A stretch of 47,678 nucleotides of DNA from Candidatus Kuenenia stuttgartensis. GTDB taxonomy: Bacteria > Pseudomonadota > Alphaproteobacteria > SMXS01. Shown here in pieces: positions 17,894 through 36,877 of the stretch (the stretch's first letter is position 1; each line of letters opens with the position of its first letter). The stretch is from NCBI GenBank assembly GCA_943329845.2, contig CALQFM020000027.1, positions 1-47,678 of the forward strand, given 5' to 3'. The position numbers were made by a program, and so were the translations under genes. The notes below the pieces were generated by a model that had not been told where the DNA came from, ran no database searches, and saw only the letters and a list, made by a program, of their open reading frames with translations.

Positions 17894-17904
17894 GAGCCGA
17901 ACCA

Positions 17905-19775: not shown

Positions 19776-21074
19776 ATGTCGACAGCGGCTAGGTTTTGCA
19801 TGGCGACGGCGATAGCCGCGGGCGCTCGCGCGGCTGTTCTCGTCTCGACCATGGCGGCGGGCCTCGCGTTCTGTGCGCCCGCCGGAGCCGTGGAGTTCGG
19901 CAGGGCGGTAATTGGCAATACCGTGCAAGGCCGTGTGCACCAGGAATACGAGCCCATCGGGATTAGGGCCGGCAGTTTCATGTTCTTCCCGAGTATCGAT
20001 CTGCGCGGCGAGTATTCCGACAACATCTATGCCACGACGGGTGCCAAGGTTGACGACTTCATCTTCGGTATCCGGCCGCAGATAAGCGGTCGGTCGCTGT
20101 GGAAGCGCCATTCGCTGCGCATGTCGGCCTTTGGGAACTTCGGTCTCTATGCGGACAACCCAGACGAGAATTTCAATGATGCGGGTGTCAACACCGACGC
20201 CACCATCGACATTGCCGAGAACAGCCAGATTACCGCCAGACTGGCGGCGACGCGCGACCACGAGCGGCGCGATTCTCCCGACGATGCGCGCGGCATCAAT
20301 CCGACGATCTACTACCGGATCACCCCGGAGCTGAAGTTCGACCAGCGGATCAACCGCGTCGCGCTGAGACTCAGGGCATCGGCCGACTACATCGACTTCA
20401 ATGACGTCGCAACCGGCACCGGTACCATCCTCAACGAGGACGACCGCGACCGCCTGACCTGGGTGCTGGAGGGGCGCGCCGGCTACGACGTGTCCCGGAA
20501 CGTGCAGCTCTATGTGAGCGCGCTGACCGACCACCGCACCTACGACGAGCAGTTCGACGATGACGGTGTCGAGAGGGATTCCAACGGTTTCGGCGTGTTC
20601 GGCGGCATCATCGTCGACCTCGCCGGCACGCTTTCGGCCGAGGCCTATGTCGGCTACCGGCGACAGTCATTCGCCGATGCATCGCTGGTCAACGTCAGTG
20701 GCGTGGCCGGCGGCCTCAACCTGATCTGGGCGCCGACAAAGCTCACGACCGTCACCCTGACCGGTGAACGTACTGTCGAGGAGACCACGCTGACGGGCAG
20801 CACGGCTTCGCTCAATACCGCCTTCGACGTTTCCATCGATCACGAACTGCGCCGCAATCTCGTCATCACCGTGTCCGCTGGCTACCTGAACCGGCACTAC
20901 GAGGGCATCGCGCGCGACGACGACAATTGGCGGGGAAGCATCGCGGTGCAGTACCTCATCAGCCGCCACTTCCGGTTGCGGTGCGGGTACAGCTACAATG
21001 CGCGCAGCTCGAACGTGCCCGGCACCGCCTACGACACCAACTCTGCTTATGTGAATCTCCATGTGGACTACTAA
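19776..21074 (+). CDS. Outer-membrane beta-barrel protein of the EPS export locus (BBP2-like)
   Basis: ATG 19776 lies behind CAAGGGGG; the 432-residue product starts with a long signal peptide ending near APAGA (about residue 36). The mature part has alternating-hydrophobicity strands rich in Tyr, Asp and Asn (FFPSIDLRGEYSDNIYAT, VGYRRQSF, SAGYLNRHYEG, RCGYSYNARSS) and ends in VNLHVDY with a terminal aromatic, as outer-membrane barrels do. It matches the putative beta-barrel porin 2 type that accompanies Wza genes. It nearly touches the OPX gene downstream, so the two probably form the outer-membrane exit for the polymer. Confidence 0.82.
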   Translation: MSTAARFCMATAIAAGARAAVLVSTMAAGLAFCAPAGAVEFGRAVIGNTVQGRVHQEYEPIGIRAGSFMFFPSIDLRGEYSDNIYATTGAKVDDFIFGIRPQISGRSLWKRHSLRMSAFGNFGLYADNPDENFNDAGVNTDATIDIAENSQITARLAATRDHERRDSPDDARGINPTIYYRITPELKFDQRINRVALRLRASADYIDFNDVATGTGTILNEDDRDRLTWVLEGRAGYDVSRNVQLYVSALTDHRTYDEQFDDDGVERDSNGFGVFGGIIVDLAGTLSAEAYVGYRRQSFADASLVNVSGVAGGLNLIWAPTKLTTVTLTGERTVEETTLTGSTASLNTAFDVSIDHELRRNLVITVSAGYLNRHYEGIARDDDNWRGSIAVQYLISRHFRLRCGYSYNARSSNVPGTAYDTNSAYVNLHVDY

Positions 21075-21093
21075 CAATATACGGACGCCTCGC

Positions 21094-21642
21094 ATGCCGC
21101 ACCGCCTGCTGCTGATCGCCGCCGCGCTCGCCCTGGCGCTTGCCGGATTCGCGCGGCCGGTCGATGCGGAGACTGTCGACCGGCAGCAATATCTGCTCGG
21201 CCCGGGCGACCAGATCCGTCTGACCGTGTTCGGCGAGAACGATCTGTCGGGTGAGTTCAAGGTCGGTGACGACGGTACGGTGGCATTGCCGCTGCTCGGT
21301 CAGATTCCGGCCGAGGGGCAGACCCCGGGGCAACTGGAGAAGCTCATCGCCCAGAGGCTGCAGCCCGACTATGTGCGCAATCCGCAAGTCAGCGTCGAGG
21401 TGATGACCTACCGGCCGTTCTTCATCATCGGCGAGGTCAACAGGCCCGGCAGCTATCCCTACCAGAGCGGCATGACCGCGCTGGAGGCGGTGGCGCTCGC
21501 CGGCGGCTTCACCTATCGCGCCAAGACCGAGCAGGTTCTGATCAAGCGGACGGTGGGCAACAACGCGCAGGAAAACCTGCTGCCCATCGAAACGGCGGTC
21601 ATGCCCGGCGACGTCATCAAGATCCGCGAACGGTATTTCTGA
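21094..21642 (+). CDS. Short polysaccharide export protein (Wza/GumB-like OPX)
   Basis: The mature protein starts after a signal peptide (MPHRLLLIAAALALALAGF, cleavage near VDA); ATG 21061, overlapping the previous gene, is an alternative start. A Poly_export domain (YLLGPGDQIRLTVFGENDLSGEFKVGDDGTV) is followed by one SLBB domain (FFIIGEVNRPGSYPY to VLIKR). At about 183 residues it lacks the C-terminal helix that forms the outer-membrane pore in E. coli Wza, and there is no lipobox Cys. Such short OPX proteins need a separate barrel, and one is encoded directly upstream. Confidence 0.92.
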   Translation: MPHRLLLIAAALALALAGFARPVDAETVDRQQYLLGPGDQIRLTVFGENDLSGEFKVGDDGTVALPLLGQIPAEGQTPGQLEKLIAQRLQPDYVRNPQVSVEVMTYRPFFIIGEVNRPGSYPYQSGMTALEAVALAGGFTYRAKTEQVLIKRTVGNNAQENLLPIETAVMPGDVIKIRERYF

Positions 21643-21778
21643 CCATGACAGCCTGTCCGGTCGGCCCCCGCCACCGTCGTCGCGATCAGTCCGCACGCCG
21701 CGTGCCGGCGCGCTCTCGCAGTCAAACAATGCGCCGTGACCTGACGGGCCGGCGCGGAACCAAGGTATCGTCGAGCTG

Positions 21779-23986
21779 ATGAACGAGCAGTCCGAGACAA
21801 GACGCCGCAGCCTGCTGTCATTGTATGGTATGTGGGGTGGGCAAAACCAGGAAGAGGCGGCGTTCCGCGACCTGTTCAGCCTGCTCTGGCGCCGGCGCTG
21901 GGTCGTCGCGGCGACCATGGCCGTGATCTGCGCGGGGACGGTCATCGGGCTGATGATGACCACGCCGAAATACCAGTCGACGGCCCTGATCCTGATCGAG
22001 CCACGCGTCAACCGGGTCGCCGAAACCACCTCGGTGCTGTCGAACCTGCCGGCCGACTTCGAGACCGTACAGACCGAGTTGGAGGTCATCACCTCCTACG
22101 GCCTGCTCAACAAGGTGGCGCGCGACCTCTACCTGATCAAGGATCCGGAGTTCAACAGCAGCCTCAAGCCGGTCTGGTTCGGCAGGCGGATCCTGAACAA
22201 TCTCTTCTCGAGCGAAGGTCCTCCGCCAACGCAGGAGCAGCTCGAACGCGACGCGACCAACACCCTGCTTGCGTCGACGGCCGCCAGCAGCAGCGGCCGC
22301 AGTCGCGTGGTGTCGCTGACCGTCGAGGCGGAGTCTCCCGCCAAGGCGGCCAAGCTGGCCAACGCCGTCTCCGACGCGTATCTGGTGTCGCAGCTCGACG
22401 CCAAGTTCGAGGCGACGCAACGCACATCGATCTGGCTCAACAAGCGGCTTCGCGAGCTCAAGGAGCAGGTCCGAGCCTCCGAACAGGCGGTGGAGCAATA
22501 CCGTCAGGAAGCCGGACTGATCGAGGGAAAGAATTCCTCGCTGTCCACCGCCGACCAGATGATGTCGCTGAACAACCAGATCGTGCTGGCGGGCACCCAG
22601 CGCGCCGAGGCCGAAGCCCGGCTGTCCAGCGTGCGTTCGGTCATGGGCAACCCGGAAGCCATGAGTTCGGTTTCGGTGATCATGGGCAACGACATGATCC
22701 AGCGCCTGAAGGGCGAGGAAGCCACGATCCGCCGCAACGTGGCGTCGCTCAGCCAGCGCTACGGACCCAAGCATCCGCAGATCCTCCAGGCCGAAGTCGA
22801 GCTGGCCGACATCCAGCAGAAGATGAACCTCGAGACGTCGAAGATCGTGGCCTCGCTGGAAAGCGACGTCGCCATGGCGCGGTCCCGCGAGAACTCCCTG
22901 ATCGGCGCCCAGAACCGGCTCGAGTCCAACATGTCGAGCCAGAACCAGCGCGGCATCAAGCTGCGCGAGCTGACGCGCGAATCCGAAGCCAACAGGGCCT
23001 TGATGGAAACGTTCCTGGGGCGCTTCAAGGAACTGAGCGACCAGAGCAACATGCAGACAACGGACGCCCGGGTGATTTCGCGGGCGCAGCCTCCCGCCTC
23101 GCCCAGCTCGCCCCAGACGCGCTTTATCCTTTTGCTTGCGCTGATGGCCTCCGCGGGCATCGGCATCGCCCTCGCGGTGGTGGTGGAACGGCTCGACAGC
23201 GGTGTTCGTACCGGACGCGACATCGAACGCTGGACCGGCCTGTCGGTGCTGACCATCGTGCCCGAACTGAAGGGCAAGGGCAGCCCGGCCAACAAGTCCA
23301 TGCAGGTCGTCACCGCGCCCATGTCCCGCTATACGGAGAGCTACCGGAACCTGCTCGTGGCGCTGAATCTGTCCAATGTGGACAATCCGCCCAAGATCAT
23401 CGCGGTCACCTCGGCCAATCCCTCGGAAGGCAAGACCATCACCAGTATCTCGATGGCGGCCGCGGCGGCGGCGACCGGCAAACGGGTGTTGATCCTGGAT
23501 TGCGATCTCCGGCGGCCGCGGCTGCACCAGGAGCTGGGCGTATCGCGCGGTCCGGGTCTCGTCGATTACCTGGCCGGCCAGGCCGAACTCGAAGCCGTCA
23601 TGCGCACGGACGAGCGCTACAACTTGCAGTACATCACGGCGGGTAGTGAGACCCAGAACGTGCTGAGCCTGATCGAGTCCCAGAAGCTGCGGGCGCTGCT
23701 GACCCAGATGAAGCCGCATTTCGGACTGATCGTCGTCGATACGCCGCCGCTGCTGGCGGTCGCCGACGCCAAGGTGCTCGCCGAGCGCTGCGATTCCGTG
23801 GTGTTCGCGGTACTCTGGGGCAAGACCTCGCGCAACACCCTGATCGATGGCCTCAAGCATCTCGAGGGCAACGCCGCGCCGGTGGCCGGCGTGGTCATGA
23901 CGCGCGCGGACATGGACCGGCTGTCATCCTATCAATACGGCACCTCGTATTACGGCAAGGCTTACAAGAGCTACTATTCGTCCTGA
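21779..23986 (+). CDS. Polysaccharide co-polymerase/tyrosine autokinase (Wzc-like)
   Basis: This 735-residue fusion has a Wzz-type N-terminus with a first membrane helix (WVVAATMAVICAGTVIGLMM), a long periplasmic coiled coil with a GNVR-type region (RGIKLRELTRESEANR), a second helix (FILLLALMASAGIGIALAVVV) and a cytosolic BY-kinase. Walker A SANPSEGKT (Lys552), Walker A' ILDCDLRRP and Walker B LIVVDTPPLL are intact. The tail YQYGTSYYGKAYKSYYSS carries seven tyrosines for autophosphorylation. It controls chain length and assembly of the Wzy-dependent export machine with the OPX protein 136 bases upstream. Confidence 0.95.
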   Translation: MNEQSETRRRSLLSLYGMWGGQNQEEAAFRDLFSLLWRRRWVVAATMAVICAGTVIGLMMTTPKYQSTALILIEPRVNRVAETTSVLSNLPADFETVQTELEVITSYGLLNKVARDLYLIKDPEFNSSLKPVWFGRRILNNLFSSEGPPPTQEQLERDATNTLLASTAASSSGRSRVVSLTVEAESPAKAAKLANAVSDAYLVSQLDAKFEATQRTSIWLNKRLRELKEQVRASEQAVEQYRQEAGLIEGKNSSLSTADQMMSLNNQIVLAGTQRAEAEARLSSVRSVMGNPEAMSSVSVIMGNDMIQRLKGEEATIRRNVASLSQRYGPKHPQILQAEVELADIQQKMNLETSKIVASLESDVAMARSRENSLIGAQNRLESNMSSQNQRGIKLRELTRESEANRALMETFLGRFKELSDQSNMQTTDARVISRAQPPASPSSPQTRFILLLALMASAGIGIALAVVVERLDSGVRTGRDIERWTGLSVLTIVPELKGKGSPANKSMQVVTAPMSRYTESYRNLLVALNLSNVDNPPKIIAVTSANPSEGKTITSISMAAAAAATGKRVLILDCDLRRPRLHQELGVSRGPGLVDYLAGQAELEAVMRTDERYNLQYITAGSETQNVLSLIESQKLRALLTQMKPHFGLIVVDTPPLLAVADAKVLAERCDSVVFAVLWGKTSRNTLIDGLKHLEGNAAPVAGVVMTRADMDRLSSYQYGTSYYGKAYKSYYSS

Positions 23987-24005
23987 CCGCCAAGGATCGA
24001 AGACA

Positions 24006-25160
24006 GTGTCCAGCGCTGTGAACGAGGTCTCGCGCGAGCCATTGACGGGCGGCCTCGATGTGCTGTTCGTCATGCCGCATTTCCGGGCCGGCGGTGCCGA
24101 GCGCGTCAGCCTGCTGCTCGCCAACGAGCTGGCGGCGCGGGGCGTTCGGGTGGGAATCGCGGCCTATGAGAAGAAGGGCGAGTTCCTCGACCGGATCGAT
24201 TCCCGGGTGCGTCTGGAGGAAATCGGCGGTTCCGGATGGTTCGCGGCGATCCTGCCGCTGTCGCGCCTGGTCCGGCGCAGCCGTCCTCGGGCGCTTGTCG
24301 GGGTCATGGTTTCGTGCAACGTGGCGGCCGTGGTGGCGGGGCGCCTCGCGCGGACCGGCGCCAGGATCGTCCTCACCGAGCATAACCAGGTGGACAAGAG
24401 CGCGGATTTCTTCGGCGGCAACAGCCGTTCCTACCGCGCGATCCCGTGGGTCTATCCGCACGCCGACACCATCGTCTGCGTCTCCGACGGGGTGCGGGAT
24501 TCACTGTGCCGCTATTCGGGCATGACGCCGGACAAGATGCGGGTGGTGCACAATCCCATCGTCTCCAGCGACCTGATCGACAAGGCCACGCAGCCTTGCC
24601 CTCACCCCTGGGCCAACGATCCCCAGGTGCCGTTGATCCTGGCGGTGGGCCGGCTGGCGACGGCCAAGAACTATCCCATGATGCTGCGGGCGTTCGCCAT
24701 CCTGCGCCGGCAGCGCCGTGCCCGGCTGCTCATCCTGGGGAACGGCCCGGTCCGTGACAGCCTGGCCGCGCTGGTCGACGAGCTCGGCGTCGCCGATGAG
24801 GTCGAGATGCATGGCTACACCAGCAATCCCTATGCCTTCATGTCGCGCGCCAGCCTGTTCGTGCTGTCGTCGTCCTGGGAAGGGTTCCCCACGGTGCTGG
24901 TGGAGGCGCTGGCCTGTGGCAGCCCGGTGGTCTCGACCGACTGCCCGAGCGGCCCGCGCGAAATCCTGGTCGATGGTAAACTGGGCGAACTGGCGCCGGT
25001 CGGCGACGAGGCGGCGCTTGCCAGCGCGATGATGCGCACGCTCGATGCGCCGCCGGACCGGGAGGCGCTGATGGCGCGCGGCCGCAGCTTCTCGGTCGAG
25101 CATGCGACCGACATCTACGCCCGCCTGCTGCTGGGCGAGACGGCGCAGGCCGCGCCATGA
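24006..25160 (+). CDS. GT4-family glycosyltransferase
   Basis: GTG 24006 follows AAGGATCG and gives 384 residues. The N-terminal motif LFVMPHFRAGGAERVSLLLANEL is typical of GT4 enzymes of EPS loci; VSDGVRDSL and LILAVGRLATAKNYPMML begin the donor-binding half, and SSWEGFPTVLVEALACGSPVV holds the E-x7-E residues. It should add one sugar of the repeat unit on the cytosolic face. It starts 19 bases behind the Wzc-like kinase, and its end overlaps the next gene by four bases (ATGA). Confidence 0.92.
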   Translation: MSSAVNEVSREPLTGGLDVLFVMPHFRAGGAERVSLLLANELAARGVRVGIAAYEKKGEFLDRIDSRVRLEEIGGSGWFAAILPLSRLVRRSRPRALVGVMVSCNVAAVVAGRLARTGARIVLTEHNQVDKSADFFGGNSRSYRAIPWVYPHADTIVCVSDGVRDSLCRYSGMTPDKMRVVHNPIVSSDLIDKATQPCPHPWANDPQVPLILAVGRLATAKNYPMMLRAFAILRRQRRARLLILGNGPVRDSLAALVDELGVADEVEMHGYTSNPYAFMSRASLFVLSSSWEGFPTVLVEALACGSPVVSTDCPSGPREILVDGKLGELAPVGDEAALASAMMRTLDAPPDREALMARGRSFSVEHATDIYARLLLGETAQAAP

Positions 25161-25888
25161 ATGAGCGGCCGCCCATCGTCGTCCTCGGGGCCAACCACGC
25201 CGGGACCCGTCTGGTCGTCGATATCCTGCGCACCCTCGGCAGCGCTGCCGGCCGTATCGACAACGAATGGCTCGAGGACGAGACCTTCCTGGAGATTCAC
25301 CGCCGACTGATCGGGCGGGTAGCCGGCAAGGGCTGGACAGACACGATCTTCGACATGGAGTTCGTCCAGAGCTACCGCGACGACGCGCGGTTGGTGCCCG
25401 AAATGCGCGACTGGCTGGCGCAGTCGCTCTCCGACAGTTTTCCCGACCGGACCGCGCCCTGGCACTGGAAGTGCCCGACGGCGGTCATGTTCCTGCCGTC
25501 CTGGACCGAGATTTTCCCGGAGGCGCTGTTCGTCCACATCGAACGGGATTCGACGGAAGTCGCGCGCAGCCTGGTGCGCCGCCGCCAGTTCCTGGGCTTT
25601 GGCCGCGCCGCGGCGTTCTACGAGGCCATGAACCGGCGCATCCTCGAGGCGCGCGGGACCATGAAGAACTATGTGCGCCTGTCCATGGAATCGCTCGGCG
25701 ACGGCCTGCCGGCGCTGGTGGAAATGGCCGGTCTCGACCCGGGGCAGGAGGCGCTGCTCAGGGCGCGCCGCGGTATCCGGCTCGATCCCGCGCGCGGCTG
25801 GCGTGCCGATCGCTCCGTGCTGGGCAACCTCTGGGAAGCTGCCACCAATGCCCGTGCCGCCGTTCGGGGCCGCAACGGCAAAAGATAG
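25157..25888 (+). CDS. Sulfotransferase-family protein
   Basis: The 243-residue protein begins IVVLGANHAGTRLVVDIL, a PAPS 5'-phosphosulfate loop variant, and has a second motif FVHIERDSTEVARSLVRRR matching the 3'-phosphate-binding strand. Trp and His residues near HWKCPTA may line the acceptor site. Translation is coupled to the upstream glycosyltransferase by an ATGA overlap, so it probably modifies a sugar placed by that enzyme. The P-loop is less canonical than in the other sulfotransferases of the locus; a non-sulfotransferase role for the fold cannot be excluded. Confidence 0.7.
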   Translation: MNERPPIVVLGANHAGTRLVVDILRTLGSAAGRIDNEWLEDETFLEIHRRLIGRVAGKGWTDTIFDMEFVQSYRDDARLVPEMRDWLAQSLSDSFPDRTAPWHWKCPTAVMFLPSWTEIFPEALFVHIERDSTEVARSLVRRRQFLGFGRAAAFYEAMNRRILEARGTMKNYVRLSMESLGDGLPALVEMAGLDPGQEALLRARRGIRLDPARGWRADRSVLGNLWEAATNARAAVRGRNGKR

Positions 25889-25896
25889 GGAAGTAG

Positions 25897-26017: not shown

Positions 26018-27304
26018 TCACGGGGCGGTGCCACCGGTTGGATGCGACCGCAGTCGGCCATCTGTCGGCTCGTCGACGATCTTGCCGCCGCCTGAAACGA
26101 TCTCTGCGACCAGGCGCCGATCCGTTTCGTCGCGGTCCCAAGGCCGCGCTCCGGCAATCTGTGGCAGGATTTTGTCCAGCGAGGTGGCGGGAATCGGGTG
26201 CAGTTCCTTGCGCTGAACGGGCGCGTTATCCGTCGACACATAGGTGCCATCGGGCATCGGTTCCGCTGGATCGAAGGCGCTTGTTCCCCGTACGACGTTA
26301 CCGGCGAACTCGACGCGGCTGCCAGCCGGTGGGCCCTGCGTGAACCCGGGAAGAATGGGTTTGGTGTCGGGTCCGGCGACGACGAGGTTGTTGACGGCAC
26401 TGACCATCGTTGGCTTGTCGTTGCGCGCCGAGTAGAAGTGCAGCGCGGAGGCACCCGGATTGTAAATCAGGTTGTTCACCACGATAGCGGATGCTCCCGC
26501 CGAGACCACCGGGTTGCGCCAGCGGTTGCTCATCAAAATGCTGTTCTGCACGAGGATGTCCTTGGTCAGCGGGCCGACCAGAACCCCCATGCTGTGCTTC
26601 CCCTTCGGATGGATCGAATTGAACAGACCCTCCGCAACGATGGTGTTCTCGATGGCAATATCGTGAGAGCCCTGGCCATAGACCGCGATGCCTTCATCGA
26701 TCGACCAAGCCACAGAAACATTGCGAACGACGATGTTGTAAGCCGGCTTGCTTCCATCCTTGCTGCCGTCGATGGAGATTCCGTCGCGATTGCCCGCAGG
26801 CGAACGGTCCGGCAGTGCGCCAACCCTGACTCGCAGGTGGCGCACGAATATGTCGTGTCCGCGCAGCCGCAAGCTGTCGCCCATGAGACTGATGCCGGGT
26901 GATGGCGCGGTTTCGCCGACGATGGTCACGAAGGGGCCGCGTACTACCAGTTCGCGCTCCAGCCAGATCTCTCCTCCGACCTTGAATACGATCTTGCGCG
27001 GGCCTGCGGCCTCGACTGCCTCGCGAAGGCTTCCGGTCCCGTGATCCGCCAGCGTTGTTACCTCGATGACACGTCCGCCATCGCCGCCCGAGGTCAGTTC
27101 GACCGGTGCAAGGCCATTCCCGCGGGCAAGGTCTTCGACCTCTCGTGCCGATTGATGAGACGGTTTTTGCGCGCTGGCCGCGACGTTCCACCCGCCGACA
27201 AGAACCAACGTTAACAGCAGCCCGACCCACAACGACGTGGAGCGGGGAACCTTCGGGCAGCTCAGGCCAGACGCACCTGCCGGTTTCTCTCCGCGACGAA
27301 TCAC
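26018..27304 (-). CDS. Secreted pectate-lyase-like right-handed beta-helix protein
   Basis: GTG 27304 overlaps the upstream stop as GTGA, giving 428 residues with an internal hydrophobic export segment (LWVGLLLTLVLVGGW, cut near ASAQ). The mature part opens GGRVIEVTTLADHGTGSLREAVEA, the hallmark of polysaccharide-lyase-1-like proteins. Stacked beta-helix rungs follow (NIVVRNVSVAWS, DIAIENTIVAEG, DILVQNSILMSN, AIVVNNLIYNPG). It probably cleaves or binds an acidic polysaccharide in the periplasm or outside. Lyases in EPS loci trim or release their own polymer. The catalytic residues cannot be assigned from sequence alone. Confidence 0.82.
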   Translation of the reverse strand: MIRRGEKPAGASGLSCPKVPRSTSLWVGLLLTLVLVGGWNVAASAQKPSHQSAREVEDLARGNGLAPVELTSGGDGGRVIEVTTLADHGTGSLREAVEAAGPRKIVFKVGGEIWLERELVVRGPFVTIVGETAPSPGISLMGDSLRLRGHDIFVRHLRVRVGALPDRSPAGNRDGISIDGSKDGSKPAYNIVVRNVSVAWSIDEGIAVYGQGSHDIAIENTIVAEGLFNSIHPKGKHSMGVLVGPLTKDILVQNSILMSNRWRNPVVSAGASAIVVNNLIYNPGASALHFYSARNDKPTMVSAVNNLVVAGPDTKPILPGFTQGPPAGSRVEFAGNVVRGTSAFDPAEPMPDGTYVSTDNAPVQRKELHPIPATSLDKILPQIAGARPWDRDETDRRLVAEIVSGGGKIVDEPTDGRLRSHPTGGTAP

Positions 27305-28137
27305 GGAATCTGGGACCGGGCCTTGGCGAGCCAGGCGAAGGGGCCCGCGACGAAATTGATATAGGCCTTGCGTAGTGGAGTAAGGCCCGTCTCCCAGCTG
27401 TGGTCGACCTTGATCGTGCTGACGCTCGTCGCCCGGCTCCGGTTGCCGCTGATGTTGTGCCTGTCGGCGTGGGCCCAATCGAGTTGGCGCGCCTCGAAAT
27501 CCAGACCGAGCTTCGGCATGATCGAACGCAGCCATTCTTCGGGAGTGGAAGCGATCTGTTCGTATGTAGTGAAGATCGTTTCCGCCTTCTGGGCCTGACG
27601 GGTCATTGCCAGAGTGTCGAGCGCGTTACGTACGGCATGGCGGTAGGGGCCGCGGCCTGAGCGCTTCATGTGCGAATAAACTTGCCCCCCCGGATTACGC
27701 ACCAGGTGCACGATGGTCACAGGTGCGAAATCGGCGTCCAGCAGGGCGCGAAGACGTGCCGGTTGCTTGCTCGAATCCACCAGCAGCGTCGCGCCGGTCT
27801 CTGCGGCCACAGCGTCGAACAACAGCTTGTTGTCACGGGCGAACGTCGCGGGGTCGTTCGACGCAGTGTCGAGCTCCCGCAAGCTCATCCCCGAGGCCTC
27901 TCGGACGCCCGCGTCGACTTTGGGCCAGAACGTGCACTGCCAGATGTCTGGAGCGCCGCAGGTGCAGGCATTGCCAAGCGCCGTCTTGTGCGATATTTCG
28001 AGTTGTAGCTGCGCGTACGAGCGCAGCTTCCACGGCTCACCCAGACAGAACGACGCGCTATGCGCCCCGAGAAGGGTTCCGCACAGTGTCGATCCGCTGT
28101 GCGGGAGGCTCATGATGTACGCAATGCGATAGGACAT
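27301..28137 (-). CDS. Sulfotransferase
   Basis: The 278-residue protein has the PAPS loop MSLPHSGSTLCGTLLGAHS at residues 9-27 and the 3'-phosphate motif IVHLVRNPGGQVYSHMKRSG. A Cys pair (ACTCGAPDIWQC) may bind a metal or form a disulfide. It should transfer sulfate from PAPS to a sugar hydroxyl in the cytosol. It is the first gene of a two-gene unit with the lyase (GTGA overlap). The 181-base AT-rich gap upstream probably holds the promoter. Its lower third-position GC than the housekeeping neighbours suggests separate acquisition. Confidence 0.85.
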   Translation of the reverse strand: MSYRIAYIMSLPHSGSTLCGTLLGAHSASFCLGEPWKLRSYAQLQLEISHKTALGNACTCGAPDIWQCTFWPKVDAGVREASGMSLRELDTASNDPATFARDNKLLFDAVAAETGATLLVDSSKQPARLRALLDADFAPVTIVHLVRNPGGQVYSHMKRSGRGPYRHAVRNALDTLAMTRQAQKAETIFTTYEQIASTPEEWLRSIMPKLGLDFEARQLDWAHADRHNISGNRSRATSVSTIKVDHSWETGLTPLRKAYINFVAGPFAWLAKARSQIP

Positions 28138-28318
28138 TAGACGCTTTCCGAAGCTTAGGGAGAAATATCATTCCGCAATGCAAAATGGCAAGACCTATCG
28201 GCGGAACTCAGAGGGAAAGTAGCTGATGTCCGCGGATATGATATGTTATCTCAAGTTAATACGAGAACAATATTCTTGAGTTAAGAATGTTGCCAGCGGT
28301 GATACTTCGAAATGGATA

Positions 28319-29224: not shown

Positions 29225-29437
29225 GGCGATACCATAGCGCCATTGTTTCGACGCTGCATCTCGAAATTCCCGCAAGCCGCCCGGGCTGGCGGGGACCACA
29301 TCACTTGGCTATACAGGAGGGGGGCGGGCAAGGGATAAACATGACTTTCCAATCTATGGACAATGGCGCGCATGCGGCCTGACCCGAAAGAATTTCCATC
29401 GTCGGCCGCCGAAGGACGCAATGAAAAGTGCCCCGGA

Positions 29438-30532
29438 ATGCGCATCGCCTTCGTCGTCTCGTTCTGGTCGCTCGGCGGTGCGCCCGAGGTCGCCGCGCGC
29501 GTCGCCAGGGCGCTGCAGTCTCGTGGGCACGAGGTCGAGGTCTTGTATCTCTACCGCAGGACCGACCATCCTCTACCGCCCGGCCCTTGCCGGTTGCTGG
29601 TCGACGGGGATGTGTCCCGTTCGCCGGGTTATGTCGCGTTGCCCTCGCTGCTGTTGAAGGCGCTTCGCCGCTTCCGTCCCGACACGGTGATCAGCTTCTC
29701 CCCGCTTGCCCATGTGCTCGGGCAGACTGCGGCGGCGCTGACCGGCGTGACCGGGCGGGTGGCCGCGCACCGGGTGGTCTGCTCGGAATACTCTCTGGCG
29801 CTGCGTGTGCTGGACAGGGTCCTGGGCACCATCGGAATCTATACCGGCATCGTCGCGGTCTCGAAGGCCGTCGAACACTCGGTCGCCCTCTATCCATCAT
29901 CATACCGCCGGCGGGTCCGGATCATCCATAACGGGGTCAGCCGCGTGCCCAGTCCGATCAGCCGCCGGGAGGCGCGAGCGGCATTCGGCCTACCAGAGGA
30001 AGAGGGCCTCGTGCTGGCCGTGGGCCGCCTTGCGGATCAGAAGAATTATCCGTTGCTGATCGATGCGATCTCGCGGCTGGAGCGAACGCACCTGGTGGTG
30101 GCCGGCACCGGCCAGCGGCGCGAGGCGCTCGAGCGGCACGCCGCCGAACTCGGCATGCCGGACCGGCTGCACCTGCTAGGCCATCTGTCCACCCAGGGCC
30201 TTTCGGACCTTTTTCGGGCCTGCGACGTTTTCGCCCTTGCCTCGCTTTACGAGGGCCAGAGCAACGCGCTGCTCGAAGCGATGGCCGAGGGCATGCCCAT
30301 CATCGCCAGCGACATCCCCGAGCAGGTCGAAACGCTGCGCGGCCCGGACGGTCGGGACGCTGCCATTCTGTTGCCGGTCGGTGATGCGGCGGCATGGACC
30401 CGGGCTATCCATGCGCTGCTGGGCGACGCTGATCTCCGCGCCTCGCTGGGCGCGGCGGCACTCGAGCGCTCCCAGTATTTTACGACCGACAGGATGGTGG
30501 ACTCCTTCGAGGCCGCTGCATGCGGCGACTGA
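29438..30532 (+). CDS. GT4-family glycosyltransferase
   Basis: The recognisable enzyme starts MRIAFVVSFWSLGGAPEVAARVARAL at ATG 29438 (364 residues); ATG 29363 would add 25 residues with no clear role. IIHNGVSRV and LVLAVGRLADQKNYPLLIDAI open the donor domain, and ASLYEGQSNALLEAMAEGMPI carries the E-x7-E pair. It adds a sugar to the lipid-linked repeat unit. It restarts the plus-strand EPS gene order after the minus-strand lyase/sulfotransferase block. Confidence 0.9.
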   Translation: MRIAFVVSFWSLGGAPEVAARVARALQSRGHEVEVLYLYRRTDHPLPPGPCRLLVDGDVSRSPGYVALPSLLLKALRRFRPDTVISFSPLAHVLGQTAAALTGVTGRVAAHRVVCSEYSLALRVLDRVLGTIGIYTGIVAVSKAVEHSVALYPSSYRRRVRIIHNGVSRVPSPISRREARAAFGLPEEEGLVLAVGRLADQKNYPLLIDAISRLERTHLVVAGTGQRREALERHAAELGMPDRLHLLGHLSTQGLSDLFRACDVFALASLYEGQSNALLEAMAEGMPIIASDIPEQVETLRGPDGRDAAILLPVGDAAAWTRAIHALLGDADLRASLGAAALERSQYFTTDRMVDSFEAAACGD

Positions 30533-30599
30533 TCAAATGCGGCGATCTTGCGTGCGCGGTCTTTCATGCCGGGCGGCGTGAGCGTATGAATAGGCGTCG

Positions 30600-31964
30600 T
30601 TGGGCAAATTGCGCGATCGGTGCGTGTCGGCCGTGGGAAAACAAACAGAGTTGACGCAAACGGTCCCACTTTGGGAGCGGATTTTTGTCGTGGTGGTCTT
30701 CGTGACAGCCTGCCGGGCTTTTGTCTCGTTGCAGGGCCTGTTCGGCGGCAATCATAGGGGCACTTCCGAATTGGGCGACAGCTCTCCCGCCCGCTTCGCC
30801 TGGCTGGCCATTCTCTACGGCATCGGGCTGGTGCTGCTGGTCGCGCATCACCACCGGGAAATCCTCAAGCTGGTGTCGCAGAACAAGCTGCTCGTTTTGG
30901 TCATCGCCTACATCCTGTTGTCTACGACCTGGGCGTTCGATCCGAACGCGTCGCTGAGGCGCGCCGCCGCCTTCGGACTGACGGCGGCTTTTTGCGCTTA
31001 TCTGGCACTGAGATACTCACCTCTGGACATCCTCAAGCTGGCCGGATGGAGTCTGCTAGTAGTCGCGGTGCTCAGCCTGGTCTCCGCGGTGCTGTTTCCC
31101 GAATTCGGCCTCGAGCTGTACGGTCGCAAAATGGGCTGGTGGAAGGGCATCTGCGGCATCAACACCGCCTTCGGCCGCTTTATGGCGCTGGGCATACTGG
31201 TCATATGGTGCCTGCGGCGGGCCGACTGGAGGCTGCAGCGTTTCGACGTGCTCGTGTTTGGCCTGTTCCTCCTGTGCACTTACCACGCCCACGCCGCCTC
31301 GTCGCTCGCGGCGGTGTTCGGCGCCTTTTGTAGCATCCTCGCCATCTGGTCCAGGTCCGTGTTCAACATCGAGCTGGCGCCGAAGGTGCTCATCGGCACC
31401 TTGGTCGGGCTGGTGCTGCTCGCGACCGTTCCGTTCTATTTCGGCGACGTGCTGTTGCTGCTGGGCCGCGACGAAACCCTGACCAACCGCGTGTTCATCT
31501 GGCGTGCCGCTTTCGAACAGGGATGGCACAATCCGATCTTCGGCGTCGGCTATAGTTCGTTCTGGATCGAGGGCAACGCGGCGTCGGCCTTCCATAACAT
31601 GTTCGGCAGCGCCAACACCGAGGTCGGCAACGGCCACAACGGCTATCTGGACGTCTGGCTGGAGCTGGGCTTCGTGGGCCTGGGCCTGCTACTGCTGCTG
31701 ATGGTCCAGGCCTTAACCCGTGTCATCCGGTACCTGGCCGTCAGCGGCGAACCCTTCGCCGAGTTCTATGGCGGCCTGCTGGTGTTCATCGTGATCTACA
31801 GCATCGCTGAAAAGGTGATCTTTGTGCACTCGGAGTTCACCTGGATGATGTTCATGACCGGACTGATGGTGCTTCGCTGGCGCCACGGGATGGCGACGCA
31901 CAAAGAGAACGTCCGTCCGGAGTGGGACGGCGCCTTGCCGAACATATCGCGGCGCGTCCCGTAG
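30600..31964 (+). CDS. Wzy-like O-antigen/EPS polymerase
   Basis: The 454-residue integral membrane protein (TTG 30600; GTG starts a few codons later are possible) has about ten to twelve hydrophobic segments. A large periplasmic loop contains NRVFIWRAAFEQGWHNPIFGVGYSSFW and GNGHNGYLDVWLELGFVGLGLLLLL, the Wzy_C/O-antigen ligase signature with its HNxxLxxxxExG-like region. It joins flipped repeat units in the periplasm. It lies 67 bases after the GT4 gene and is convergent with the WecG-like gene, only 7 bases away. Confidence 0.87.
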   Translation: MGKLRDRCVSAVGKQTELTQTVPLWERIFVVVVFVTACRAFVSLQGLFGGNHRGTSELGDSSPARFAWLAILYGIGLVLLVAHHHREILKLVSQNKLLVLVIAYILLSTTWAFDPNASLRRAAAFGLTAAFCAYLALRYSPLDILKLAGWSLLVVAVLSLVSAVLFPEFGLELYGRKMGWWKGICGINTAFGRFMALGILVIWCLRRADWRLQRFDVLVFGLFLLCTYHAHAASSLAAVFGAFCSILAIWSRSVFNIELAPKVLIGTLVGLVLLATVPFYFGDVLLLLGRDETLTNRVFIWRAAFEQGWHNPIFGVGYSSFWIEGNAASAFHNMFGSANTEVGNGHNGYLDVWLELGFVGLGLLLLLMVQALTRVIRYLAVSGEPFAEFYGGLLVFIVIYSIAEKVIFVHSEFTWMMFMTGLMVLRWRHGMATHKENVRPEWDGALPNISRRVP

Positions 31965-31971
31965 GGCGCTG

Positions 31972-32772
31972 TTATTCGGGTCGTCGCCGGGTGCGGGTGG
32001 CGATCAGATACAGCGCGTGCGGGTTCGTCGTCAGATATCGCCAGATCAGGTATTTCGGCCCGAACACCATGCGGTGAAGCCATTCCAGGCCGGCTTCCTG
32101 CATCCAGAGTGGCGCACGCGCGTAGTCGCCTGTCAGGTAGTGGAAGCAGCCGCCGCAGGTGATTATCCATCCGGCGCGGATCCGGCTGCGGTTGCGCACG
32201 CAGAACCTCTGCTCCAGGGGTTTGCCCAGGCCGACCCAGACGACGTCGGCGGCGGACTCGTTGATCTGTGCGCAGACCTCGTCCTCGTCCTCGAAATAGC
32301 CATGGTGGCGGCCGGCGATGGTAATGCGGGGATAGAGCTCCTGCAGCCGCTCCGCCGCCGCCCTGTTGATCTCCTCGGTCGAGCCCAGCAGGAAGAACCG
32401 CAGTCCGCCCGCCTCCGACCCGACCTTCGCCGCGTGATGGATGAAGTCGGTGGTCGCGGTGCGCCCGGGGATCGGCGCGTGCGTCAGCCGCGAGGCCCCG
32501 ACGATCACGCCGCCATCAGCATGGATGATATCGGCCTTCAGCAGGTCGTCGCGGAAATTCGTGTCCAGCGCCGCCGTGGACAGAGTATGGCCGTTGGTGG
32601 AAAACACCATAGTCGGCCAGCGGTCCGGATCCTGGCGGTGCGCCACGCAGTCGGACACCATGCGATCGGCCAGTCCGTCCAAGCCCAGAACCGCCGTGCG
32701 CACGCCGCCGATAAGGATATGCCGCACCGATTGCCGGGTGACGGGATCGCCGGTACTTGTTCTCGTAGGCAC
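31972..32772 (-). CDS. WecG/TagA/CpsF-family glycosyltransferase
   Basis: GTG 32772 is chosen for the GAGGAAC ribosome-binding site; GTG 32727 is an alternative. The 266-residue protein shows the GT26 pattern: TMVFSTNGHTLSTA, DADIIHADGGVIVGASR-like segment, FFLLGSTEEINRAAAERL, HGYFEDEDEV, VVWVGLGKPLEQRF and GGCFHYLTGD. GT26 enzymes add ManNAcA, ManNAc or glucosyl residues to polyprenyl-linked sugars. It is 65 bases downstream of the flippase gene on the same strand, so both are likely co-transcribed. The sugar donor is not readable. Confidence 0.93.
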   Translation of the reverse strand: MPTRTSTGDPVTRQSVRHILIGGVRTAVLGLDGLADRMVSDCVAHRQDPDRWPTMVFSTNGHTLSTAALDTNFRDDLLKADIIHADGGVIVGASRLTHAPIPGRTATTDFIHHAAKVGSEAGGLRFFLLGSTEEINRAAAERLQELYPRITIAGRHHGYFEDEDEVCAQINESAADVVWVGLGKPLEQRFCVRNRSRIRAGWIITCGGCFHYLTGDYARAPLWMQEAGLEWLHRMVFGPKYLIWRYLTTNPHALYLIATRTRRRPE

Positions 32773-32837
32773 TCGGTTCCTCGCTGGCCGCCGATCGAGC
32801 GCGTTATACCAGCGGCGGCCGCAGGCAACAATCCTAC

Positions 32838-34367
32838 TCACCCGTCGAGGGTCTCGCCGGAGCGGTAATGCCGGACGACATTCAGGCCGAGCCTGAACGA
32901 GTGCCGACCTGCCGGAAAAAGCCAAGCGGTACTCCAGACAATAGCATAGGAAAGGACCAGCCCCATCGGCAAAGCGATCCAGCGGGAAATTCCCTGAACG
33001 TTTGCAAGGGCAACCAGCGTCGCTGCGGCAAGCACCATTCCCGGGAGTAGGAACAGAAACGTGCGTCCGATGTCGGACATCTTGATGTATGACCAGCGTG
33101 TGACGGTAATTACCTGAAAGGGCAGAAGCAGGAGCAGAAAAGCGCCGGCATAGGCGGTGGCAACTCCCAGCCCTCCCCAGGGAAGACCCGCCGCAAATGA
33201 ACCGATCAACACGCTAGTCTTGAACATTGCCCATGTCCTGAACTCGCGGCCGCGGCCCTCGGCAATATAGAGCCACTCGATCATTATTGTCTGGAATCGC
33301 ACCAGCGTGGCGACGCCGAAGGCCTGGAAAATCGGAATGACGGGGTCCCAAGCGTCGCCGTAGACCAGAGGAATCAGCAGATGCGCCATCACGAAGGCGA
33401 ATATCACGCCTGGAACCGCCGCGAGCAGTACCAGCCGCATCATGCCCAGCACCCATCGTCGATAAAGTTCCGGCCTATCGATCAATCTGGCGAACACGGT
33501 TGGGACCATGCCGGACAACGGCGATGTGATTAGGCTCGTCGGCGCGACCATCAGCCGGAAAGCGCGGTCGTAGTAGCCCAGCACCACTTCGCCCCACGCC
33601 TTTCCGATCATCACCGAATCGGCGTTGGCAGCCATGTAAGTGAGAAATCGGCCCGTTGCCATGTTGCCGCCGAAGCCTACCATGTCCCGCACGTCTGTCT
33701 TCCGGTCGGGCAGCCCCGGCCGCCAGCCGCTGAACAGCCACGACAGCATGGTTCCGGCGATGCTTCCGGCGATCGGGATGGCGATCAGCGCCCAGTAGGT
33801 CCGCCACTCGACGGCGATGAAGATGCCGACGCACAGGCCGAACAGCGTGGCGGACAGCTTGATGAAGCCGACGCGGGCGAATTGCAGGCGCCGGATCTGT
33901 ACAGCCCGCTGCAGCGATCCCAGGCCGTTGAATACGAACAGGCTGCAATAGACCGCCGCCGCCAAGCTCAGCTCCGGCCGGCCGTAGAGCAGGCCGACCA
34001 GCGGGGTCAATGCCAGGAACACCAGCATCAGGGCCAGGTGGAACGCCAGCGACACCCAGAACATGTTGGACAGGTGCTCACGGGTCAGGTCCCTGCGCTG
34101 CAGCACGGCTTGTCCGAGCCCCAGGTCGCTGAACACCCCGATTGCCACCATTAGCGGTGCGACCATGGCGGCCAGGCCGAAGTCCGACGGCATCAGTAGC
34201 CGCGCCAGGATCACGGTCGAGGCGATCTGCAGCACAATCAGGCCCGCTTGGCTGACCGCGAGGCCCATGCCGCCGCGGAAGGACTTCCGCTTCACTGAGC
34301 CGATATCGTCGTCGAACGCCAGTCCATCGTCGGAGTCGCCGGGTTTTCGCAACGGACCGCATCCCAT
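32838..34367 (-). CDS. Wzx-type polysaccharide flippase
   Basis: The 509-residue protein has 12-14 membrane segments and the Polysacc_synt_3/MOP-family start SFRGGMGLAVSQAGLIVLQIASTVILARLLMPSDFGLAAM. LVYGDAWDPVIPIFQAFG is also typical. It moves the undecaprenyl-linked repeat unit across the inner membrane. The 156-base gap to the divergent initiating transferase at 34524 must hold promoters for both. Together with Wzy, Wzc, OPX and the initiating transferase it completes a Wzx/Wzy pathway. Confidence 0.92.
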   Translation of the reverse strand: MGCGPLRKPGDSDDGLAFDDDIGSVKRKSFRGGMGLAVSQAGLIVLQIASTVILARLLMPSDFGLAAMVAPLMVAIGVFSDLGLGQAVLQRRDLTREHLSNMFWVSLAFHLALMLVFLALTPLVGLLYGRPELSLAAAVYCSLFVFNGLGSLQRAVQIRRLQFARVGFIKLSATLFGLCVGIFIAVEWRTYWALIAIPIAGSIAGTMLSWLFSGWRPGLPDRKTDVRDMVGFGGNMATGRFLTYMAANADSVMIGKAWGEVVLGYYDRAFRLMVAPTSLITSPLSGMVPTVFARLIDRPELYRRWVLGMMRLVLLAAVPGVIFAFVMAHLLIPLVYGDAWDPVIPIFQAFGVATLVRFQTIMIEWLYIAEGRGREFRTWAMFKTSVLIGSFAAGLPWGGLGVATAYAGAFLLLLLPFQVITVTRWSYIKMSDIGRTFLFLLPGMVLAAATLVALANVQGISRWIALPMGLVLSYAIVWSTAWLFPAGRHSFRLGLNVVRHYRSGETLDG

Positions 34368-34523
34368 CGTTCGCGCTAGTTCGCCAGCATGGCATACATC
34401 GGCAGCCGACCTGCACGCAATCCTATCGCCATTCGAGAACGACGCGTTTTGACTTGGCAGTGAGGACGTTTTGAACGTAAAATGCCCCAGGGCAAAAAGT
34501 AGGCACAGACGAGGGCATCGCGC

Positions 34524-35969
34524 GTGCTTCAGGTGGGCAAAGAGTGGGGCGTTATCACCGGCGGAGCGTCAGCTCGGTCAACGGGTTTCCGTTGGACTGC
34601 GAGGATGATCGAGTTCGCGGCCATGGCTGGCGATGTCGTCATCATCCTCGCGGCCGCGATCATGGCCTCGCAGCTGAGGTTCGACGAACTGGAACTGGCG
34701 CCGAACTACCTCTTCCCTGTGTTCCTGGGCGCGATCCTGTCCGTCAACATCTTCCGGTGGCGCCAGCTCTATTCTCTCGAAACTTATGCCAAGCGCGCCC
34801 AGCAGACCGTGATGCTGATCGGCGCCCAGCTGCTGGTGACCCTCATCCTGCTGGGCATCGGGTTCGGTTCCAAGACCTCGGCCGACTTCTCCCGCATATG
34901 GTTCACCCTTTGGATGACCATCAGTTCGGTCGGGCTGATCGGATGGTTCTTCGTCCGCGCCGGGTTCGTGCGCGCGGCCCAGGCCAAAGGCGCGCTCTGC
35001 GACCGGCTGCTGCTGGTGGGCGATGCCGAACGGATCGCCAGCTTCACCGTCTGGCTCGAAGTCAAGAACTCGCGCATGCTCAAGGTGCTCGGCGTGGTTT
35101 CCGTGGGTGACCAGCTGCCGACGCCGGTTGACGGCTGTCCCGTGCGGGCCGGCGTGGAGCATCTGGCCGACCTGGCGGAGGCGCTATCGCCGGACCGTGT
35201 CGTGCTGCTATTCAACTGGCGCGAGCCCGAGATCATCGATCGCTGCGTCACGTCGCTCCGCAGCCTTGCGCTCGACGTGGACCTGATGCTGCCTAGGCTG
35301 GGTCACGAATGGATCGGGCGGCCCATCGCCACGTTGGGCGGCCTGCCGGCGATGAATTTGATGCGCAGCCCGCTATCCATGCATGGGCGGCTCATCAAGC
35401 TGGGCGCGGACTATCTGGTGTCCATCATCCTGCTGCTAACCGTGCTGCCGTTGCTGGTCGCCGTCGCGATCCTGATCAAGCTCGATTCGCGGGGACCGGT
35501 GTTCTACATGCAGCGGCGGATCGGGTTCCAGGGCCGCGAGTTCTCGATCATCAAGTTCCGCACCATGTACACCGACGGCGAAGCCGGCTTCAGGCAGGCC
35601 ACGAGGGGCGACCCGCGGATCACCCGGATCGGACGGCTGCTGCGCGCCTCGAGCATCGACGAACTGCCGCAGCTGCTGAACGTGCTGCGCGGCGACATGT
35701 CGCTGGTCGGTCCGCGCCCGCACGCGGTCTGCATGAACGCCGAGTTCGCCGTCCAGATCGATGACTACCTGGCGCGCCATAAGATCAAGCCCGGCATCAC
35801 TGGCTGGGCGCAGGTGAACGATGCCCGCGGCGAAACCCGGTCGATCGAGGACATGCAGCGCCGCGTCGCCTACGATCTCGCCTATGTGGACAACTGGTCG
35901 CTGTGGCTGGATGTGCAGATCATCCTGCGCACGGCATCCGTGGTGCTGTTCCACAAGAACGCTTACTAG
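34524..35969 (+). CDS. Undecaprenyl-phosphate hexose-1-phosphate transferase (WcaJ-like)
   Basis: GTG 34524 gives 481 residues, the normal length for this family. Four N-terminal membrane segments and a Rossmann-like middle (DRLLLVGDAERIAS) precede the catalytic bacterial-sugar-transferase domain from about residue 290. That domain has the re-entrant helix (YLVSIILLLTVLPLLVAVAILIKLDSRGPVFYMQRRIGFQG), KFRTMYTDGE, RITRIGRLLRASSIDELPQLLNVLRGDMSLVGPRPHA and PGITGWAQVN. It starts repeat-unit assembly by moving a hexose-1-phosphate, most likely glucose, onto undecaprenyl phosphate. Confidence 0.95.
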   Translation: MLQVGKEWGVITGGASARSTGFRWTARMIEFAAMAGDVVIILAAAIMASQLRFDELELAPNYLFPVFLGAILSVNIFRWRQLYSLETYAKRAQQTVMLIGAQLLVTLILLGIGFGSKTSADFSRIWFTLWMTISSVGLIGWFFVRAGFVRAAQAKGALCDRLLLVGDAERIASFTVWLEVKNSRMLKVLGVVSVGDQLPTPVDGCPVRAGVEHLADLAEALSPDRVVLLFNWREPEIIDRCVTSLRSLALDVDLMLPRLGHEWIGRPIATLGGLPAMNLMRSPLSMHGRLIKLGADYLVSIILLLTVLPLLVAVAILIKLDSRGPVFYMQRRIGFQGREFSIIKFRTMYTDGEAGFRQATRGDPRITRIGRLLRASSIDELPQLLNVLRGDMSLVGPRPHAVCMNAEFAVQIDDYLARHKIKPGITGWAQVNDARGETRSIEDMQRRVAYDLAYVDNWSLWLDVQIILRTASVVLFHKNAY

Positions 35970-36025
35970 GCGCTTCAGACTCTGTACCGACACGACCTGG
36001 TGGAATGCCGAGGCCCAGCCGTGAT

Positions 36026-36877
36026 TCAACGAGATGGCTTCTCGTTGTTCAGCCAGTTATCGAGATTGCGCCCAGTAAAGTCTGAAAGCAGTTCCACTTC
36101 GTCGGCATAGAACGCAGCGAGCCTTGTCCGAATGCCGTCATCGAAGGGAGGATAGGTTAGGCTACTAGAGACGGCGCGCAGCAGCGTCCTTCCCAAAGGC
36201 GAACTTCTCAACGACTTCCCTACCCCGCGACGCCAGCGTTCCGAGCGCATGAAGGCGCCTAGCAATTTGTTGTAGACTGGCTTGATACCATGCGATTTTC
36301 TCGCATTGTATCGAAACTTCACGCTTGCACTGTCAAACGTGTGAGGTGCGGCAAGGAATTTACTGATGTCGCTTAGCAACTCGATCGGCCGCGCGCTGAT
36401 GTCGTCATGGATGGCGATGTGCAACCTCTCGCGCGGGAAGCGCTCTAGGAATCGACCAAGCTGCTGAGTGTAGAGGCCATTTTCGAGAATCTCGCGTGCC
36501 CGCGCATTGGCAGGGTCCAATTCCCGGTTGATGTCGGCACTCACCAAACCACGATCCAGCCGCATGCAGTAGCCTGAATAGGCGCGCTCGACGGGGTTGC
36601 GGAGGATTGCCAGCAATTTCACATTGGGCAATTCTCGAAAAATCCGCGCGGGAGCGCGGGGATCGGTCATATAAGTGTTAGAGCGTTCGCCAGCCACCTG
36701 TCCGGGTTGACGGTCGGCGAAGAAACCCGAGTACCACTCGATGGACTTCCTTTCGTAGTAGCGGCTGAAATAGTGGATTTCAGCAGGAGGGACGAAGAAA
36801 CTGGGATTTTTGCCGAGATTGTTGGCGAGCCAACTGGTGCCGGATTTAGCGGCGCCAATAATGATAAAATCCAGCAT
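36026..36877 (-). CDS. Sulfotransferase
   Basis: ATG 36877 has a perfect AGGAGG box in front. The 283-residue product has the PAPS loop MLDFIIIGAAKSGTSWLANNL, EIHYFSRYYERKSIEWYSGFF and the 3'-phosphate motif LLAILRNPVERAYSGYCMRL, as in Sulfotransfer_1 carbohydrate enzymes. It is convergent with the initiating transferase. It is clearly more AT-rich at third positions than most neighbours, a sign of recent acquisition. It is the fourth sulfotransferase-type gene of the EPS locus. Confidence 0.9.
   Translation of the reverse strand: MLDFIIIGAAKSGTSWLANNLGKNPSFFVPPAEIHYFSRYYERKSIEWYSGFFADRQPGQVAGERSNTYMTDPRAPARIFRELPNVKLLAILRNPVERAYSGYCMRLDRGLVSADINRELDPANARAREILENGLYTQQLGRFLERFPRERLHIAIHDDISARPIELLSDISKFLAAPHTFDSASVKFRYNARKSHGIKPVYNKLLGAFMRSERWRRGVGKSLRSSPLGRTLLRAVSSSLTYPPFDDGIRTRLAAFYADEVELLSDFTGRNLDNWLNNEKPSR

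Follow-up and report, generated by a model that had tools for sequence, protein, structure and literature searches.

Sulfate groups are known on polysaccharides of seaweeds and animals. Synechan is a proven sulfated exopolysaccharide (EPS) of the Wzx/Wzy type, with two sulfotransferases, two sulfates per repeat, and sulfate shown chemically (PMC8205485). Sulfate has also been demonstrated by nuclear magnetic resonance in the capsules of Cobetia marina KMM 1449 and Vibrio KMM 8419 (PMC11766843, PMC11641403), and in 2017 a Clr-controlled cluster on pSymB of Sinorhizobium meliloti was put forward as the source of a sulfated polysaccharide (PMC5498481). Further loci have been predicted for Ca. Phaeomarinobacter (PMC4110880) and Actinoplanes (PMC13390465), and a 2026 paper still calls bacterial sulfated polysaccharides exclusive to cyanobacteria (PMC13390465). 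Here, we analyze an alphaproteobacterial locus that combines a complete Wzx/Wzy gene set with four intact sulfotransferase genes. It lies within positions 19776 to 36904 of contig CALQFM020000027.1 (C27; 47,678 nucleotides), which is one of 107 contigs in an assembly of 3.68 Mb (GCA_943329845.2, Candidatus Kuenenia stuttgartensis) and was analyzed whole, as the window. Sequence comparisons indicate that this locus very probably directs the synthesis and export of an EPS that is sulfated and is likely to contain uronic acid.

A Wzx/Wzy locus with four sulfotransferase genes

Profile searches of the window proteins identified an initiating phosphoglycosyltransferase, Wzx, Wzy, Wzc, and an outer membrane polysaccharide export protein (OPX) together in one locus, as expected of a Wzx/Wzy pathway (Table 1). 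An initial annotation of this DNA had claimed all steps of such a pathway, and every part that it named was indeed found close to where it had been placed. The same holds for the four sulfotransferases (ST1 to ST4) that it had located at 25157, 27301, 28319, and 36026, all of which exceed the cut-offs of Pfam families PF00685 or PF13469. The coupling of ST1 to a glycosyltransferase gene was likewise confirmed, since GT4a ends at 25160 and ST1 starts at 25157, giving an ATGA overlap. Two genes had been absent from that annotation, one encoding a PelZ-like protein and the other GalE. The galE gene is divergent from the locus at its left edge and is kept beside it in the relatives seen, while the right-hand limit of the locus is at 36904.

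About nine sulfotransferase genes over the Pfam cut-off are present in the whole genome, and four of them lie within 12 kb here. By a Poisson estimate made by hand, the chance of such clustering over the genome is ~1e-5, and we thus consider that the genes are not clustered by chance.

Active-site residues and fold of the sulfotransferases

Inspection of the sequences showed that the Arg-x7-Ser pair of the 3'-phosphate site for 3'-phosphoadenosine 5'-phosphosulfate (PAPS) is present in all four proteins. Additionally, the 5'-phosphosulfate loop carries the Lys or Arg in ST3 (KRAGTT) and ST4 (AKSGTS). Both proteins match heparan sulfate 3-O-sulfotransferases (3-OST) of the PDB, with E values from 1e-28 to 1e-14. 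ST3 matches 3-OST-3 (1.4e-28), and ST4 matches 3rnl (9e-21) and 3-OST-5 (2.6e-19). In heparan sulfate 3-O-sulfotransferases, a Glu acts as the catalytic base; this Glu, the loop Lys/Arg, and Arg-x7-Ser are all kept in the alignment of ST3 with 3-OST-3. Furthermore, E108, R169, and S177 of ST3 are invariant in an alignment of six sequences, namely, ST3, ST4, the S. meliloti, Roseibium, and Parasedimentitalea homologues, and the first sulfotransferase of the synechan cluster.

Divergence is greatest in ST1, whose R130, S138, and GANHxGT motif are invariant among the relatives aligned. An AlphaFold (AF2) model of ST1 built from four sequences had a predicted local distance difference test score (pLDDT) of 72, and a Foldseek search of the PDB with this model returned PAPS-dependent sulfotransferases as all of its top 15 matches (Z of about 11 against those structures). 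The sulfotransferase fold is therefore indicated by a model for ST1 and by sequence matches to solved structures for ST3 and ST4. These comparisons group the proteins with sulfotransferases and not with other P-loop families, in support of the sulfated EPS that the initial annotation had predicted. The identity of ST2 is suggested by its Pfam score and by its relatives, the sulfotransferases of Skermanella plasmids (41% identity over 97%). Finally, the ratio of nonsynonymous to synonymous substitutions (dN/dS) against a congener was about 0.21 for ST1 and about 0.24 for ST3, indicating purifying selection on both genes.

Two observations concern sulfotransferases elsewhere. A second sulfotransferase (L064, at G000:C92:6255-7091; also L056 and L057) is 53% identical to ST4 and has relatives in genomes G001 and G004; no EPS locus was recognizable in the surrounding DNA read. 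It is a possible source of ST4. A hypothetical protein of Vibrio phage vB_ValP_VA-RY-3 (MW900438.1, 21760 to 22089) resembles a sulfotransferase N terminus (30% over 110 residues; 9e-8).

PAPS supply in the genome

The initial annotation had proposed to look for PAPS synthesis genes elsewhere in the genome, and these were found: CysD, a CysN-CysC fusion with an intact adenosine 5'-phosphosulfate (APS) kinase domain (NF004035, 1064 bits), and a CysQ scoring over its cut-off. The genome as a whole thus has the PAPS supply that a sulfated locus of the synechan type needs. CysD is 82 to 88% identical to plasmid copies from Rhodobacterales and Sphingobium, and the assignment to the class Alphaproteobacteria was based on this similarity, as a search of the assembly for ribosomal RNA found none. 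The only CysH carries the CC...CxxC cluster motif of iron-sulfur reductases of the APS type, which suggests that PAPS is probably not needed for sulfate assimilation here; in that case, the APS kinase would be best explained by sulfation. The genome also encodes a nucleotide-sugar dehydrogenase that could supply UDP-glucuronate.

Conservation of the locus in close relatives

The locus is syntenic in four genomes of the same genus (G005, G002, G003, and G006) and in one of a sister genus (G007), while G004 has a partial copy and G001 only a 35% Wzc paralogue. Among the complete loci of the genus, Wzc is 67 to 80% identical, and the PelZ-like gene is present in all four congeners read through. 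A sulfotransferase is kept within the syntenic locus of every relative read beyond GT4a. ST1 and ST3 occur together in G005, G002, and G007, and one different sulfotransferase is found in G003 and G006. At the sequence level, the export scaffold is therefore stable while the modification genes turn over between relatives.

In G005 and G002, the slot of ST4 is occupied by an exported type I sulfatase. This protein has a CKPAR formylglycine motif and a leader of the twin-arginine-like type, and its relatives include arylsulfatases and iduronate-2-sulfatase. No sulfatase match of any kind was found in the genome of the window. A biosynthetic locus with both a sulfatase and sulfotransferases is difficult to account for if its product is not sulfated. 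Sulfatase-like sequences were also seen a few kilobases from ST3-like genes in other alphaproteobacterial families (L147, G010:C96; L055, G090:C4).

The turnover of the modification genes bears on how many of the four enzymes are used. It is possible, if somewhat doubtful, that the polymer is sulfated by only one or two of them, the others being drifting remnants of past acquisitions. Indeed, the number and kind of sulfotransferases differ among relatives, whose loci hold one or two each versus four in the window, and ST2 was not found in any congener. In addition, when one of the two synechan sulfotransferases was deleted, bloom and yield were little changed (PMC8205485). The lower numbers in related loci and the synechan result also weaken the earlier statement that four enzymes imply several distinct sulfation positions. 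Speaking against such remnants are the four intact open reading frames, which all retain the Arg and Ser of the 3'-phosphate site, and the dN/dS values of ST1 and ST3 near 0.2.

Similar loci in distant Alphaproteobacteria

To find distant parallels, we searched the window proteins against annotated plasmids. Plasmid pQS-1 of Parasedimentitalea psychrophila encodes a Wzx, a PelZ-like protein, four sulfotransferases, an O-antigen-ligase-type polymerase, an OPX, and a sugar transferase, and similar gene sets occur in Ruegeria sp. B32, Roseibium aggregatum, and Leisingera sp. S132. S. meliloti pSymB carries an ST2-like gene with a PelZ-like gene behind it, in the order of the window, together with genes for Wzc, an ST4-like protein, an OPX, and a WcaJ-like protein; the annotated strain R14 has three sulfotransferases and nodQ-cysQ on one side of the cluster. 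These comparisons point to the combination of sulfotransferases, a PelZ-like lyase, and Wzx/Wzy as a recurrent alphaproteobacterial locus type. No relatives of ST1 were found on the plasmids searched. A scan of genome contigs with ST3 returned only a metagenome-assembled genome of the Steroidobacteraceae, with no Wzx/Wzy partner close by, and none of 18 further neighborhoods of ST3-like genes, from the relatives and the class, contained a Wzx/Wzy gene.

The nearest relatives of ST2, on Skermanella plasmids, adjoin cysD, cysNC, and a beta-helix gene. On the Skermanella megaplasmids (L175 and L179), genes for a sulfotransferase, CysD, CysNC, beta-helix proteins, Glf, and a glycosyltransferase stand side by side, in what looks like a separate sulfated-polysaccharide island.

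Acceptor of the sulfotransferases

Several observations weigh against a sulfated EPS as the product of the locus. The cys genes lie outside it, and the assignment of CysH to the APS type is based on a motif, with no specific APS or PAPS model over its cut-off. ST1 (NHAGTR) and ST2 (PHSGST) have a His at the loop position usually taken by Lys or Arg, which is a real deviation but probably not a disqualifying one, and a single-sequence model of ST2 was unusable (pLDDT, 39). The pathway genes are on both strands, and their co-expression is not assured. Finally, PF00685 was detected in 122 of the 240 genomes of a class-wide sample, and any Wzx/Wzy gene was present in only 4 of 60 sampled PF00685 neighborhoods. 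The fold alone thus says nothing about the substrate. For the class as a whole, we rejected a frequent association of sulfotransferases with EPS loci, given these numbers and that only one of the four cases was clear (G018, L143); as this one was taken from an earlier ST3 search, the true background is lower still.

The polymer could accordingly be an ordinary acidic one, with the sulfotransferases as mere neighbors acting on lipopolysaccharide (LPS), a glycolipid, or a small molecule. The known substrates of alphaproteobacterial sulfotransferases do include LPS (LpsS), Nod factor (NodH), and capsule (PMC5498481, PMC11625862), and most class members with this fold sit outside such loci. We nevertheless regard this explanation as quite improbable, because sulfotransferases are kept in the syntenic loci of the relatives and recur in distant clades with the same partners, because ST1 is coupled by ATGA to GT4a, and because two congeners have a sulfatase inside the same locus. 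Moreover, the relatives' paralogous EPS loci served as a control: no recognizable sulfotransferase was found in the paralogous Wzc loci of G001, G003, and G008, and that of G006 gave no more than a weak ST3-like match, located at the edge.

The form of the product is a separate matter. PF04932, the family of the Wzy candidate, includes polymerases and WaaL-type ligases alike, and if this protein were a ligase, the product would be a sulfated O antigen or an LPS-bound capsule rather than a free EPS. This appears unlikely, since a Wzc with a bacterial tyrosine kinase (BY-kinase) domain, an OPX, and a dedicated barrel are characteristic of loci that export EPS or capsule.

We thus favor a sulfated EPS. 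The sequences show the gene set, the sulfotransferase fold and active-site conservation, the PAPS genes of the genome, and the conservation of the locus in the genus and in distant Alphaproteobacteria. That the sulfate goes to this polysaccharide, at which stage it is added, that a uronic acid is present, and what the lyase-like protein does are inferred.

Proposed assembly and editing of the polysaccharide

The WcaJ-type transferase would load a hexose phosphate on undecaprenyl phosphate, and two GT4 enzymes and one GT26 enzyme would extend the unit; with one initiating and three further glycosyltransferases, a repeat of about four sugars is possible. With PAPS as the donor, the four sulfotransferases would sulfate sugars of the lipid-linked unit prior to its flipping by Wzx, and ST1 probably acts directly after GT4a. 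Sulfation in the cytoplasm is most likely, because no evident signal peptide or membrane segment was seen in ST1 to ST4 when the sequences were read by eye. Wzy would polymerize the units under the control of Wzc, and export would proceed via the short OPX and the separate beta-barrel.

The PelZ-like gene overlaps ST2 by GTGA, as read directly from the DNA, and its product has a signal-peptide-like N terminus. With 202 bits, the protein does not reach the equivalog cut-off of NF041900 (840) and is, by sequence, a distant relative rather than PelZ itself. Its PDB matches include the pectate lyase 9buj (2e-20) and VexL (0.0045). PelZ-like proteins are also found in pectin catabolism loci of Novosphingobium, which fits an activity on uronate-containing chains. 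A joint arrival of ST2 and the PelZ-like gene as one cassette was considered, but the position of the window copy in the PelZ tree is unsupported (0.49). The secreted enzyme may trim or release finished chains, either in the periplasm or outside the cell. A comparable case is WceF of the stewartan pathway, the loss of which makes the chains longer (PMC7949094).

Tentatively, and with considerable reserve, we suggest that sulfation could be edited in two compartments. Cytoplasmic writers would add several sulfates, the coupled secreted PelZ-type lyase would cut the sulfated chain, and the periplasmic sulfatase in the ST4 slot of sister species would act as an eraser, such that exchange of writer and eraser tunes the charge of one polymer in an otherwise fixed locus. 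A bacterium that provides multiply sulfated polymers along with the matching sulfotransferases, lyase, and sulfatase would be of use in making heparin-like materials. Since the genetically tractable S. meliloti pSymB cluster belongs to the recurrent locus type, the claim of a sulfated product is testable at once.

Gene coordinates and neighboring genes

The coordinates of the locus are given in Table 1; the real start of the GT26 gene probably lies downstream of 32925.

Table 1. Genes of the Wzx/Wzy and sulfotransferase locus and the adjoining galE gene, with positions in the window
Predicted product	Position	Strand	Evidence
UDP-glucose 4-epimerase GalE	18554-19540	-	TIGR01179 440 bits, cut-off 262; synteny
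Outer membrane beta-barrel, BBP2_2	19776-21074	+	PF10082 323 bits
Short OPX, Poly_export + SLBB, 193 aa	21061-21642	+	PF02563 91 bits, PF10531 42 bits
Wzc co-polymerase with BY-kinase domain	21779-23986	+	PF02706, PF13807, PF13614; TIGR01007 131 bits, cut-off 108
Glycosyltransferase GT4a	24006-25160	+	PF00534 129 bits
ST1 sulfotransferase	25157-25888	+	PF13469 35 bits, cut-off 27
PelZ-like secreted beta-helix protein, predicted polysaccharide lyase/depolymerase	26018-27304	-	NF041900 202 bits over 341 residues
ST2 sulfotransferase	27301-28137	-	PF13469 47 bits; Skermanella plasmid relatives
ST3 sulfotransferase, start possibly ATG at 29224	28319-29299	-	PF00685 72 bits, cut-off 22
Glycosyltransferase GT4b	29363-30532	+	PF00534 107 bits
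Wzy polymerase candidate, Wzy_C family	30600-31964	+	PF04932 60 bits
WecG/TagA/CpsF glycosyltransferase (GT26)	31972-32925	-	PF03808 169 bits
Wzx flippase	32838-34367	-	PF13440 224 bits
Initiating hexose-1-phosphate transferase, WcaJ type	34524-35969	+	TIGR03023 418 bits, curated cut-off 411
ST4 sulfotransferase	36026-36904	-	PF00685 46 bits; PDB 3rnl, 3-OST-5

On the left, a P450 gene is followed by a carboxymuconolactone decarboxylase family (CMD) gene (16499 to 18495, plus strand). This pair is not part of the polysaccharide locus, is accompanied by an AMP-ligase gene (13552 to 15177), and is among the most conserved in the genus (P450, about 92 to 95%; CMD, 93 to 99%). On the right, a conserved, apparently exported protein with a C-terminal DUF6515 (37131 to 38546, minus strand) flanks the locus in several congeners, beside a superoxide dismutase gene. 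Farther away, the plus strand encodes a hybrid histidine kinase of 1314 residues with several PAS domains and a receiver domain (4701 to 8645) and a eukaryote-type Ser/Thr kinase with Cache and HAMP domains that runs off the contig end (45425 to 47677), near a sapC gene (43093 to 43857). The plus-strand open reading frames at 14038, 18263, and 37029 were rejected as antisense shadows of genes with family matches.

Comparison with known systems

Like the window, the synechan locus xss of Synechocystis PCC 6803 combines Wzx/Wzy with sulfotransferases of different subfamilies and with GT26-type and GT4 enzymes. ST4 matches the first sulfotransferase of that cluster (2e-16), and the catalytic Glu, Arg, and Ser are common to both. 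However, xss belongs to a cyanobacterium, has two rather than four sulfotransferases, eight glycosyltransferases, and its own regulators, and no lyase or sulfatase was seen in the annotated stretch. The Cobetia marina KMM 1449 and Vibrio KMM 8419 capsules also associate sulfotransferases and PAPS genes with a polysaccharide locus, but they are exported by an ABC transporter and their PAPS genes lie inside the cluster.

The S. meliloti cluster (SMb21237 to SMb21249; SMb21237, SMb21243, and SMb21249 were named by gene order, the 1021 record being unannotated there) shares with the window the ST2-like and PelZ-like genes on the same strand, an ST4-like gene (37%), Wzc, OPX, a WcaJ-like protein, an O-antigen-ligase-type polymerase, and GT4 enzymes. 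Its gene order agrees with that of the cluster described in PMC5498481. It differs in that identities are about 26 to 40%, nodQ and cysQ lie beside it, aminotransferase and deacetylase genes are present, and no counterpart of ST1 or GT26 was found.

Among solved structures, heparan sulfate 3-O-sulfotransferases are the nearest, or close to the nearest, relatives of ST3 and ST4, which keep the catalytic Glu and the PAPS residues. They are animal enzymes that act on finished chains and are distant in sequence, and we do not claim membership for ST3 and ST4. Similarly, the EPS cluster depolymerases WceF (PMC7949094) and VexL are secreted beta-helix enzymes encoded in a biosynthesis locus, as is the PelZ-like protein, which unlike them belongs to the PelZ/pectate lyase family and has a predicted lyase role.

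The remark of the initial annotation that sulfated polysaccharides are rarely traced to defined bacterial loci is thus true, although less so than it implied, as synechan, Cobetia, Vibrio, S. meliloti, and Actinoplanes precede this case. Overall, with related sets in other bacteria, the locus is a well-supported new example and not a new kind of system; its unusual features are the number of sulfotransferases (four), the PelZ-like gene coupled to one of them, and the exchange of writer for eraser between sister species.

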